Part shown: positions 7,798 to 11,299 of the stretch, one piece after another
How the letters are laid out: every line of letters starts with the position of its first letter
How positions within the stretch are numbered: the stretch's first letter is position 1
Source of the DNA: Corynebacterium urinipleomorphum
GTDB lineage: Bacteria; Actinomycetota; Actinomycetes; Mycobacteriales; Mycobacteriaceae
Direction of reading: 5' to 3'
DNA: 64,000 bases
NCBI RefSeq assembly: GCF_900155535.1
Contig: NZ_LT706965.1
Coordinates: forward strand, 363,746 to 427,745
Notes under the pieces: generated by a model
The model's input: only the letters and a program-made list of their open reading frames with translations
Told to the model about the DNA's origin: nothing
Database searches by the model: none
Made by a program: the position numbers and the translations under genes

Positions 7798-7823
7798 AAC
7801 CCGGCTGTTTCCCCGGTGTTGTC

Positions 7824-7860
7824 ACTGGCTGCTTGAGCTTGGCTCAGCAGCCAGTTTCTC
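7824..7860 (+). terminator. rho-independent terminator of the arg cluster
   Basis: Arms CTGGCTGC-(T)-TGAGC (7825-7838) and GCTCAGCAGCCAG (7842-7854) pair fully except for one bulged T, around a TTG loop, extended by an A-T pair. TTTCTC follows. It lies between argH and the next transcription unit. Confidence 0.85.
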
Positions 7861-7882
7861 TGCGCGCACCCTGTGCGCACCA

Positions 7883-7894
7883 TAAACTGTGCGC
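7883..7894 (+). promoter_or_regulatory. -10 element of the binding-protein/VWA cluster, leaderless type
   Basis: TAAACT at 7883-7888 lies six bases before ATG 7895, and no Shine-Dalgarno sequence is present. This spacing predicts transcription starting at the start codon itself. The right arm of the arg terminator ends 28 bases upstream. Confidence 0.45.
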
Positions 7895-9085
7895 ATGACC
7901 ACAAAACAAGCCACTGGTGGGTCCGGTAGGGGACGCGGATGCTCAGTCATCGTCGGCATTCTCCTAGCGGTGCTGGCTGTCGTTGCCGTGCTCGCAGGCC
8001 GGGGTGTGCTTCCGGGCTTCGGGGGCGACGGCAGTGACGGGAAGGGAAACGGCGCCGGCGGCTTCCGCGCCGGCACCAAGGAAATCCACGGTGTGATCGG
8101 ATCGGAGAAACGCGAATACTTCGAGGACCCCGCAGTGGTGGACCGGTTGAGGGAGCTCGGTTACACGGTGTCCGTGAATACCGCCGGGTCCCGCCGCATT
8201 GCCACGGAGGTGGATCTGGACCAGCAGGACTTCGTGTTCCCGTCCTCGAGTCCGGCCACGCAGAAGGTCACCGACCAGGGCTCGGACTATTCGGTGGACT
8301 ACCCGTTCTTCTCGCCGATGGCGGTGGCCACGTTCCAGCCGATTGTCGACCTGCTTGAGGGCGCTGGGGTGGTGCGCAAGGAGGGGGAGAGCTACGTCCT
8401 CGACGTGAACGCGTACATCGATATGGCTCAATCCGGGAAGCGTTGGCGCGATCTGGGAACTGCGTTCCCGTCGCCGCGCAACGTGCAGATTTCCACGACG
8501 GACATCCGCACCTCCAACTCGGCTGCGATGTTCCTGTCCATCCTCGCCTGGCAATTCGGTGAGCGGGAGCCGGACAAGGCCAACGACGTCGGGTGGCTGA
8601 CCGAGCAGCTCTCACCTTTCTTCACCGGTCAGGGCTACACCCAGTCCTCCTCGGCAGGGCCGTTCAACGACTACTTGAGCCAAGGCATGGGCTCCGCCCC
8701 AATGGTGATGGTCTATGAGGCCCAGTTCCTCGGCGAGAAGATGAAGCCGAATTCGAGGATCAAGGACGACATGGTTCTGGTCCAACTTGACCCGACGGTT
8801 CTGGCCAACCACGGCCTTGTGGGCATCAGTGCGGACGGCAAGGAGCTCGGACGGTTGCTCTCCACCGACGAGACGCTGCAGAAACTCGCCGCGGAGCACG
8901 GCTTCCGTCCGTCGAGTAATGACTACCTGACGCAGGCCCTGCAGGACAAAGGATTCCCGCCGCCGTCGAGCTACGTGTCGTCGGTGGACCCGCCGAACTA
9001 CGACAGGCTGGAAGCACTTATCGACGGCGTGGGAATGCGCTACGGCACTGTACCGCCCCGCAACCAGGAGGAGCAGGAGAAATGA
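7895..9085 (+). CDS. membrane-anchored binding-protein-like protein, unknown ligand
   Basis: The product (396 residues from ATG 7895) has a short basic N terminus, one hydrophobic segment at about residues 16-38 and a Gly/Asp-rich linker. A large extracytoplasmic domain follows that reads like a periplasmic-binding-protein fold (DFVFPSSSPATQ, PFFSPMAVATF). No cysteine follows the membrane segment, so it is a membrane anchor and not a lipoprotein. No transporter subunits adjoin it. Its stop overlaps the ATG of the next gene (ATGA), so the two proteins are probably made together. Function is unknown; the context suggests an envelope sensing role. Confidence 0.75.
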   Translation: MTTKQATGGSGRGRGCSVIVGILLAVLAVVAVLAGRGVLPGFGGDGSDGKGNGAGGFRAGTKEIHGVIGSEKREYFEDPAVVDRLRELGYTVSVNTAGSRRIATEVDLDQQDFVFPSSSPATQKVTDQGSDYSVDYPFFSPMAVATFQPIVDLLEGAGVVRKEGESYVLDVNAYIDMAQSGKRWRDLGTAFPSPRNVQISTTDIRTSNSAAMFLSILAWQFGEREPDKANDVGWLTEQLSPFFTGQGYTQSSSAGPFNDYLSQGMGSAPMVMVYEAQFLGEKMKPNSRIKDDMVLVQLDPTVLANHGLVGISADGKELGRLLSTDETLQKLAAEHGFRPSSNDYLTQALQDKGFPPPSSYVSSVDPPNYDRLEALIDGVGMRYGTVPPRNQEEQEK

Positions 9086-10665
9086 ACAGACTAATTGCGG
9101 TTCTGCTGACCTTGTTGGCCGGTGCCGCCCTGACCGCCTGCGGGACGGACGGCGAAAACGGAGGTTCCGGAAAAGGCGGGGTTTCGGGCTCAGGCGACGC
9201 GCTTAATATCGTCGCCGCCACCGAGCTCAAAGACCTCGAGCCGCTGGTGCAGCAGGCGTCGGAGGAGCTCGGATTCCCCATCAACCTCGAATTCCCCGGT
9301 GGCACCCTGCAGAACTCACAGGACCTCAAGCACGGGCGTTTCGACGGCACGATCGACGCCACCTGGCTGGCAACTAACCGCTACATCGACTTGATCGGTG
9401 CGCGAAACGCTCTGGCCGATGAGACGAAAGTGGCCACCAGTCCGGTCGCCTTCGGTGTTCAAGAGGCGAAGGCGCGTGAGCTCGGATGGGAGACGACGCA
9501 GCCGACGTGGGGCGACTTCGCCGACGCGGCCCGGGAAGGCAAGTTCACGTTCGGCATGACCGACCCTTCCGTGTCCAACTCCGGTTTCTCGGCCCTGGTG
9601 TCGGTGGCCACCGCAATGGCGGACACCGGCTCAGCGCTCACCGACGAGGACATTGAGAAAGTCGGGCCGCGTCTGCACGAGCTCTTCCAAGCGCAGTCGA
9701 TGGTTTCGGGCTCCTCCGGCTGGCTCGCGGATGCCTTCCAGCAGGATCCGGAGAAAGCCGACGCGATTGTCAATTATGAGTCCACCCTGCAGCAGATGCG
9801 GAAGGACGGTGCCGCGATCGCCATCATCGTGCCGGCCGACGGCGTGATCTCCGCCGACTACCCGCTGTCCACGCTTGCGAACCCGGCCCACAAGGATGCA
9901 CCTGAGCAAGTGAAGGCTTTGGCGGATTGGCTGCTCGACCACCAGCAGGAAATGGCTGATTCTTTCCGCCGGCCGGTCGCAGATGTATCGAACATGCCCG
10001 CGGAGCTGTCCGGCCAAACCGTGATCGAGCTGCCGTTCCCCGCCAATTACGACACGGTCAATGCTCTCGTCGACCGATACAACAACGAGTTCCGTAAACG
10101 CGGATCAACAACGTTTGCTTTGGACACATCCGGGTCGATGCAGGGGGAGCGTCTGGAATCGTTGAAGCAGATTATGACATCCTTCGTCGACGGCACTGCG
10201 TCCACTGACATCGGCAACGTCGCTCTCCGCGACGGCGAGCAAGTGACTCTCCAGTCCTTCTCCTCCAAGCCGCACGAGCCGTTCACCGGAACTTTCAGCA
10301 AGAGTGACCCTGGAGTGCAGCAGCAGTTCCAAGGGTATATCGATGGTCTCGTCGCAGGAGGCAAGACAAATATCTACGACACGCTGCTGGAAGCGACAGA
10401 GAAGAGCGACCCGGCCAGCGGCATCAGTTCGATCGTCCTCCTGAGCGATGGAGCGGTCACCGCAGGTAGAAGCTTGGAGCAATTCAAGCGTGAGTACACG
10501 GCGGCCACCGCCACGAAAGGAAGGATTCCCGTCTTCGTCATCTTGTACGGCGAAGCGAGTGAGAAGGACATGAAGGAGGTCGCCGACCTGACCGGCGGCG
10601 CGGTCTTCGATGCGTTGAACGGGGACCTCAGTGAAGCATTCAAGGAGATCCGTGGCTACCAGTAA
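9082..10665 (+). CDS. lipoprotein with fused substrate-binding and von Willebrand A domains
   Basis: The 527-residue protein has a lipoprotein signal peptide with lipobox LTAC (lipidated Cys20) and a Gly-rich linker. An extracellular-solute-binding-like domain follows at about residues 40-335 and a VWA domain at about 342-527. The VWA domain has an intact metal-ion-dependent adhesion site, D348-T-S-G-S352, plus the later segments NIYD and VLLSDGA. Binding-protein plus VWA fusions suggest metal-dependent protein-protein contact gated by ligand. It overlaps both neighbours. The ligand is unknown and no ABC permease or ATPase is nearby. Confidence 0.85.
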   Translation: MNRLIAVLLTLLAGAALTACGTDGENGGSGKGGVSGSGDALNIVAATELKDLEPLVQQASEELGFPINLEFPGGTLQNSQDLKHGRFDGTIDATWLATNRYIDLIGARNALADETKVATSPVAFGVQEAKARELGWETTQPTWGDFADAAREGKFTFGMTDPSVSNSGFSALVSVATAMADTGSALTDEDIEKVGPRLHELFQAQSMVSGSSGWLADAFQQDPEKADAIVNYESTLQQMRKDGAAIAIIVPADGVISADYPLSTLANPAHKDAPEQVKALADWLLDHQQEMADSFRRPVADVSNMPAELSGQTVIELPFPANYDTVNALVDRYNNEFRKRGSTTFALDTSGSMQGERLESLKQIMTSFVDGTASTDIGNVALRDGEQVTLQSFSSKPHEPFTGTFSKSDPGVQQQFQGYIDGLVAGGKTNIYDTLLEATEKSDPASGISSIVLLSDGAVTAGRSLEQFKREYTAATATKGRIPVFVILYGEASEKDMKEVADLTGGAVFDALNGDLSEAFKEIRGYQ

Positions 10666-11299
10666 TCCTTCCAGCCTGACCCCGTCGAAAAGCGGGGGAG
10701 GCGGTAACGGCAATTTCTTCACCTCCCGCAAGAACCTCGTTGGAATGATCCTGGCGGTGCTAGTGATCGCGCTGCACTTGGCTGTTGGTCTCGGCTTCCT
10801 GTGGCCCGTCGCCGCGGTCGCCGCGTGGGGCGCGGGCGTGGCGCTCACACCCGCTCCACGCAACGCGGAGCTGGAAGCACGCAAGCAGCCAATGCTCCCT
10901 GCGCCGATCGATTTGGGGCAAAAGCTCGATGCCTCGCTGGACACATTGAACGGTGCTCACCCGCCCAAGCCCGTCCGTGCACAGGCGAAGGAGATGGAAA
11001 ATAACCTCCGGTTCGTGCTGGCTAACTGGGACGATTTGGAAGCTGCCCCGCAACACCAGCAGACGATTTGGGACATCGTGACCATTTATTTCCCGGATGT
11101 GGTGAAGACGTACTTGGATGCTCCGCAGTACCGCAGCCCGGAAGCCGTTGAGGTGATGACCGGTTCACTGAGCACGCTGACGTCGGCGGCGGAAAAGGTG
11201 AAGCGCGGAATTCTCGACCAGAATTTGCGCGCTATGGACTCGCAGGCTCGCACGCTGCGGGAAGCGTTCGGCGACCTGCCTGGGTTGGACAACACCTGA
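10652..11299 (+). CDS. XpaC-like two-helix membrane protein
   Basis: The product (215 residues from GTG 10652) has a disordered Ser/Gly N terminus, a hydrophobic hairpin at about residues 27-60 and a helical cytoplasmic domain. That domain contains YFPDVVKTYLDAP and a C-terminal LRAMDSQARTLREAF stretch, a layout typical of XpaC-family proteins that often accompany TelA. AAGGAG at 10642-10647 supports GTG 10652, which lies inside the end of the preceding gene. An in-frame GTG at 10631 is less likely. The family assignment rests on pattern only; no TelA gene is in the window. Confidence 0.6.
   Translation: MATSNPSSLTPSKSGGGGNGNFFTSRKNLVGMILAVLVIALHLAVGLGFLWPVAAVAAWGAGVALTPAPRNAELEARKQPMLPAPIDLGQKLDASLDTLNGAHPPKPVRAQAKEMENNLRFVLANWDDLEAAPQHQQTIWDIVTIYFPDVVKTYLDAPQYRSPEAVEVMTGSLSTLTSAAEKVKRGILDQNLRAMDSQARTLREAFGDLPGLDNT

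Follow-up and report, generated by a model that had tools for sequence, protein, structure and literature searches.

Three overlapping genes, g1, g2 and g3, were located on the plus strand at 7895-11299 of the window, a 64,000-nucleotide stretch of the Corynebacterium urinipleomorphum genome. Judged from its sequence relationships, the trio is a variant, lacking TelA, of a TelA envelope operon. Elsewhere in the Actinomycetes the genes are arranged in the order g1-telA-g2-g3, and the chance that the trio represents the extracytoplasmic and membrane part of this operon, in a lineage without telA, was estimated as about even. The observations behind this reading are the gene content and order, the homology of the products, the absence of TelA, the conserved metal ion-dependent adhesion site (MIDAS) of g2, the topology signals and the shared neighbourhood of TelA and g3. 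An earlier note on this DNA had described three overlapping genes in this interval, and all the features it gave for them were borne out by the sequence. The features of the trio are as follows.

7895-9085, plus strand: g1, ATG start, 396 amino acids (aa), membrane-anchored solute-binding-protein homologue, conserved with g2 and g3
9082-9085, plus strand: 4-nt ATGA overlap of the g1 stop and the g2 start, read from the sequence
9082-10665, plus strand: g2, 527 aa, lipoprotein with a solute-binding domain fused to a VWA domain (Pfam SBP_bac_8 and VWA)
9139-9141, plus strand: Cys20 of the lipobox LTAC, the lipobox pattern being present in 37 of 43 aligned g2 rows
9202-10047, plus strand: solute-binding domain of g2, residues 41-322 (SBP_bac_11/SBP_bac_8 matches)
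10108-10611, plus strand: VWA domain of g2 with the MIDAS residues D348 (10123-10125), S350, S352, T429 and D456
10652-10665, plus strand: 14-nt overlap of the g2 end and the g3 start, GTGGCTACCAGTAA, from the sequence and cross-genome comparison
10652-11299, plus strand: g3, GTG start with AAGGAG before it, 215 aa, actinobacterial TelA-partner family

Relation of the trio to telA operons

The search of 394 genomes of the class with the g2 profile (A1) resulted in matches at E <= 1e-20 in 70 of them. In 20 g2 flanks taken from the class, g1 relatives were detected around g2, and g3 relatives in most; g3 was not found in the flanks L094, L095, L104, L107 and L108. Two of the latter flanks, L107 (8149-11003) and L108 (6461-9111), from genomes G508 and G574, carry a second g1-g2 pair that is more distant and next to which no g3 was detected. 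The gene between g1 and g2 in many flanks was determined to be telA, the two tested products matching PF05816 with E values of 2.2e-86 and 6.7e-88. The same 394 genomes were searched for TelA and the result was joined with the g2 table, in which the C. urinipleomorphum genome is not counted among the 57 genomes with g2. When the conservation of the trio and its distance to telA were examined in this way, 33 of the 57 genomes proved to have telA on the strand of g2 and 45-219 nt upstream of it. TelA was present anywhere in 45 of them and lacking in 12. The co-occurrence of TelA and g2 corresponded to a Fisher p of 8e-29, uncorrected for genome relatedness.

The linkage to telA was observed in three family groups of Actinomycetes (f19, f20 and f21), and the order g1-telA-g2-g3 was also found on two betaproteobacterial plasmids, those of Sphaerotilus sulfidivorans and Variovorax. 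A plasmid of Deinococcus taeanensis carries g1-g2-g3 and no telA. The E values of the g1 profile with the Sphaerotilus, Variovorax and Deinococcus proteins were 3e-113, 2e-83 and 1e-101, and those of the g3 profile 1e-25, 2e-24 and 4e-37, respectively. The trio had been regarded in the earlier note as distinct from TelA/XpaC tellurite loci; this was not supported, in view both of the telA-flanking arrangement of g1, g2 and g3 in the Actinomycetes and on the two plasmids, and of the g3 family, which usually adjoins TelA in the Actinomycetes. On the Variovorax plasmid (L128, 1743-19449) the four-gene operon is flanked by a flotillin gene on one side and Wadjet genes on the other, a defence-island-like setting seen in this one case. 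The PADLOC defence-system models gave no match to g1, g2, g3 or a TelA relative.

No match to TelA (PF05816) was obtained in the C. urinipleomorphum genome, which is 99.99% complete. Among 242 Corynebacterium genomes none exceeded the family cut-off, with one sub-threshold match in G275 (E 4e-4); both TelA searches were positive in the control genomes. The genome G028, of a different genus of the same family, also contains the trio and lacks TelA. In a quick g2 tree of 57 rows (56 different, with G599 and G541 in twice) Corynebacterium formed one clade with a support of 100 on a starred branch. Adjacency of telA changed at least 7 times on this tree, 4 of the changes being forced by starred branches, while the branches are long and the direction of the changes is unreadable. 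In one close pair, telA stands between g1 and g2 in G677; in the sister, G566, the interval between the two genes is about 180 nt long and the genome lacks telA. Since g3 accompanies TelA widely, loss of telA would be the simpler reading for Corynebacterium.

Domains and families of the three proteins

The fusion of a binding domain with an intact VWA site in a lipoprotein, proposed earlier for g2, was confirmed by the lipobox and by profile searches, in which both the solute-binding and the VWA domain were matched. The SBP_bac_8 match of g2 had an E value of 4.9e-6 and 27.0 bits, the curated cut-off being 27, and the domain alone scored 28.6 bits. At E values up to 0.01, SBP_bac_11 was matched by 28 of 40 g2 domain rows (best E 6e-17) and SBP_bac_8 by 25 of 40. 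The profile search of the PDB with the binding domain (A6) yielded weak binding-protein matches, the best at E 0.013. The VWA domain was recognised by Pfam VWA with an E value of 8e-10, and its profile matched VWA structures. The MIDAS pattern DxSxS...T...D is intact in g2, with D348-T-S-G-S352 as its first part, and every MIDAS residue was kept in 42 of the 43 g2 rows; the remaining row, L106, is out of frame in that alignment. The VWA domain was placed on the extracytoplasmic side because of the lipobox. Near-invariant motifs of the 43 rows were SNSG (165-168) and GSSG (210-213); by analogy with binding-protein families in general, these loops may be suited to an anionic ligand. In two Corynebacterium loci without g1, L041 (9829-11406) and L042 (10156-11733), a second, divergent g2 copy follows g3, and in these copies the positions of the MIDAS threonine and the second aspartate are changed.

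The g1 protein has a single N-terminal hydrophobic segment, residues 11-44, in the hydropathy profile. Comparison of the g1 profile (A7) with that of the g2 binding domain (A6) by hhalign resulted in a probability of 98% and an E value of 1.8e-13 over 249 columns, and on this profile similarity g1 and the g2 binding domain are taken to be paralogues. The description of g1 as binding-protein-like in the earlier note is made plausible by the profile-profile comparison, but is not supported by Pfam or the PDB. Neither the sequence of g1 nor its profile had a significant Pfam match, and SBP_bac_11 was touched weakly by 5 of 38 g1 rows (best E 0.0029).

Two N-terminal hydrophobic segments were detected in g3 between residues 23 and 61 by hydropathy; a further domain looks helical. 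The neighbourhood of TelA outside g2 operons was studied at 21 loci, 19 sampled from the class and two added (L111, L115). A g3 relative was present beside telA on the same strand in 19 of the 21, 18 times downstream and once upstream. L111 and L115 were part of the profile, and without both the result was 17 of 19. L134 had no g3 relative, and L146 is close to a contig end and is uninformative. The g3 of the trio and the TelA-side relatives were aligned by hhalign at 99%, with an E value of 7e-19 over 124 columns. Several TelA-side relatives seem to be without membrane helices, as read from the sequence. By these relationships g3 looks like the usual partner of TelA in the Actinomycetes.

No Pfam family over the cut-off was found among the TelA-side relatives scanned, no Pfam family matched more than 3 of 35 g3 rows, and the PDB profile search with g3 (A3) gave nothing beyond weak matches, most of them to coiled coils (best E 0.077). 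The two-helix shape is that of XpaC. The XpaC-like character ascribed to g3 earlier is supported by shape and place only, that is, by a helix hairpin with a further domain and a gene that in its family adjoins telA; the Pfam model of XpaC, PF10112 (Halogen_Hydrol), gives no support and was matched by 1 of 35 g3 rows (E 0.027) and by none of 118 class genomes over the cut-off.

The Corynebacterium locus and its distribution

At E <= 1e-3 the g2 tally was 84 of 242 Corynebacterium genomes, weak matches to other VWA or binding proteins included. The surroundings of g2 were examined in 44 of the 72 intact loci, comprising the 30 best-scoring (that of C. urinipleomorphum included) and 14 chosen ones. 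In all of the 30 best-scoring loci the trio lies between argH and tyrS in the same order, and because the trio and its order are kept there, the three are real genes and not chance open reading frames. The g3 gene was kept in 44 of the 44 loci and g1 in 38; no telA was found in the stretches examined around them. In L043 the trio sits between argG and argH. In a close relative (G109; L051, 6022-6427) the trio is nearly all lost, with fragments of g2 and g3 remaining between argH and tyrS.

The start of g3 was set at 10652, in preference to the 10631 of the mechanical open reading frame list, because the g2/g3 junction is conserved. This 14-nt junction, with the consensus GTGGCTACCAGTRA, is common to Corynebacterium, other Actinomycetes and Sphaerotilus, is altered in Deinococcus, and is absent in Variovorax and L041. 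Its sharing across lineages suggests translational coupling of g2 and g3.

By profile scan, the trio is preceded by argR, argG and argH and followed by genes for a Trm112p-like protein, tyrS, a tetratricopeptide repeat (TPR) protein, a HAD hydrolase, an FtsJ-like protein, an NAD kinase, a RecN/SMC-type protein and a SteA-like protein. Two putative transcription signals were found upstream of g1.

7825-7854, plus strand: GC-rich hairpin followed by TTTCTCT, probable argH terminator; the fold of 7798-7872 has -30.7 kcal/mol and a long stem
7883-7888, plus strand: TAAACT, a -10-like element (TANNNT), 12 nt before the g1 start codon

The consensus scan also gave a terminator-like site ending at 7854, the regional number of such sites being not above that of shuffles. 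The hairpin probably separates the trio from the arg cluster, so that the trio would form its own transcription unit. In 24 of 26 Corynebacterium loci (the exceptions being L024 and L036) TANNNT precedes the g1 start by 12 or 13 nt, compared with a mean of 0.46 and a maximum of 4 in 2000 shuffles. The position of the element fits a leaderless g1 mRNA. The plain sigma-70 scan of the region resulted in no promoter.

Proposed function, alternatives and known systems

The most likely role of the trio is that of a trans-envelope ligand-sensing complex, and ligand-gated stress sensing, which had been suggested earlier together with adhesion, is the most reasonable candidate mechanism. The paralogous g1 (anchored) and g2 (lipid-anchored) would bind a small, probably anionic, ligand outside the membrane. 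Through the MIDAS of its VWA domain, g2 may contact g1 or a different partner in the envelope in a metal-dependent manner, and the helix hairpin of g3 could relay the bound state to the cytosolic domain of g3. Where the operon is full, the partner of that domain would be TelA, the output of the receptor complex. In Corynebacterium the receptor half would persist, acting alone on the envelope or through another cytosolic effector. A broader and more tentative proposal, considered somewhat less probable than the relation to the TelA operon itself, is that two binding proteins, one of them fused to a MIDAS-bearing VWA domain, and a membrane coupler constitute a widespread, undescribed trans-envelope receptor that serves TelA systems across several phyla as their sensing half and also works in the absence of TelA. 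Under this proposal the receptor would have its own output, since natural TelA-free versions exist in Corynebacterium and Deinococcus.

Several results weigh against assigning the trio to a TelA operon with such a function. No more than 72 of 242 Corynebacterium genomes have an intact full-length g2, and 5 have split or remnant g2 (G109, G143, G173, G272 and G306), from which it follows that the trio is dispensable. The g1 gene was missing in 6 of the 44 intact loci examined (L041, L042, L044, L045, L046 and L052). TelA can do without the trio, since 28 class genomes encode it but lack a full g2. Of the named records with TelA, those of an Arthrobacter plasmid (L131), Vibrio and Methanosphaera had no g3 relative nearby, and in Curtobacterium (L132) the g3 relative is a gene away. 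The g3 of the window had no match to PF10112, and the PDB profile searches with g1 (A2, A7) gave no credible solved structure. The structure predictions of g1 and g2 had mean pLDDT (predicted local distance difference test) values of 35.4 and 39.0, with three near-identical rows each; because both models are unusable at such low values, the fold assignments of g1 and g2 rest on profiles.

Part of these results would be expected if the trio were a decaying relic drifting out of Corynebacterium after the loss of TelA, which is consistent with its patchy presence, the five remnants and the loci without g1. This explanation was judged improbable, as one well-supported Corynebacterium clade has kept intact frames, the MIDAS, the 14-nt junction and the -10 element throughout. 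A similarly low probability was assigned to a stand-alone device for adhesion or cell-wall contact, in which the MIDAS would grip a surface or wall ligand and TelA would never have been part of the function here. Other VWA proteins act in adhesion, and the MIDAS is conserved although TelA is absent from Corynebacterium; however, the repeated telA linkage in the three family groups and on the two betaproteobacterial plasmids, and the usual adjacency of the g3 family to TelA, argue against it, and the adhesion role suggested in the earlier note was left unsupported.

It is equally unlikely that g1 and g2 are orphan binding proteins of an ATP-binding cassette (ABC) importer encoded elsewhere in the genome. 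Both have binding-protein homology, and a TelA operon of another kind, found in Vibrio, includes an ABC permease subunit. However, a VWA fusion together with a TelA-partner protein does not make up an importer set. No ABC permease or ATPase was found among the scanned neighbours from argR to 20130, and the Sphaerotilus, Variovorax and Deinococcus regions have no annotated ABC transporter within about 9 kb, with no systematic permease search in the other Corynebacterium loci and none in the rest of the own genome. In L058 an amino-acid-permease-like open reading frame was noticed by eye between argH and g1. The absence of permease, ATPase and TelA genes reported earlier therefore holds for ABC transporters in the scanned neighbourhood and for TelA genome-wide, and no transporter operon matching the trio family was present in the records examined.

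The relation to the TelA operon was also compared with known systems. The Firmicutes pair XpaC-TelA (YaaN) is similar in that a partner gene adjoins TelA, the g3 family taking the place of XpaC in the Actinomycetes. In contrast to that pair, the window has no TelA and its g3 no PF10112 match, and the excerpts of PMC3498285 and PMC12791056 name no binding-protein or VWA genes with it. In Bacillus subtilis, xpaC-yaaN belongs to the core sigma-W regulon according to an excerpt of PMC3498285. For Listeria, an excerpt of PMC12791056 reports that disruption of lmo1967 (telA/yaaN-like) increased the susceptibility to nisin 4-fold and to tellurite 2-fold, and states that the mechanism of TelA is unknown.

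In Ter stress-response systems, TelA and the VWA protein TerF are listed among the submembrane components in an excerpt of PMC7824862. These systems resemble the TelA operon in combining TelA with a VWA protein; however, the VWA domain of the trio is extracytoplasmic by its lipobox and no Ter genes were found among its scanned neighbours. On the Curtobacterium plasmid (L132, 4616-8951) TelA lies among three TerD genes, so a Ter cluster, too, can hold TelA together with a g3-like gene. On a Vibrio penaeicida plasmid (NZ_AP025146.1; L154, 826-7034) TelA is accompanied by a VWA lipoprotein-like product from a gene of its own, by a product with an OmpA fusion that carries the annotation phosphate-binding, by an NMT1-like binding protein and by the ABC permease. 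In common with the trio's relatives, this operon has TelA, a small membrane protein, a lipoprotein-like VWA product and two proteins with a binding-protein annotation, but its VWA and binding domains are on separate genes, and OmpA domains and a permease are present. Its binding proteins and g3-like protein had no profile homology to the trio families. By analogy it supports the theme of TelA with binding proteins and VWA, showing a transporter-like form.

In Variovorax, the same g2 family and its partner are named "substrate-binding and VWA domain-containing protein" and "toxic anion resistance protein" by the Prokaryotic Genome Annotation Pipeline (PGAP); these are protein names only, and the window, unlike that pair, has no TelA. 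The former name did not occur in the literature searched. The open-access literature searched yielded no description of the operon, although the 2012 paper on Ter systems or the 2010 paper on Listeria telA may mention it.

With the trio as a TelA-less variant of the operon, TelA, which was named for resistance to tellurite and toxic anions, would gain concrete extracytoplasmic partners, namely two binding proteins and a VWA domain. The four-gene operon also provides TelA with a partner family that has no Pfam model. Since the operon names the partners and the natural TelA-less versions separate the parts genetically, the question of what TelA responds to becomes directly testable.

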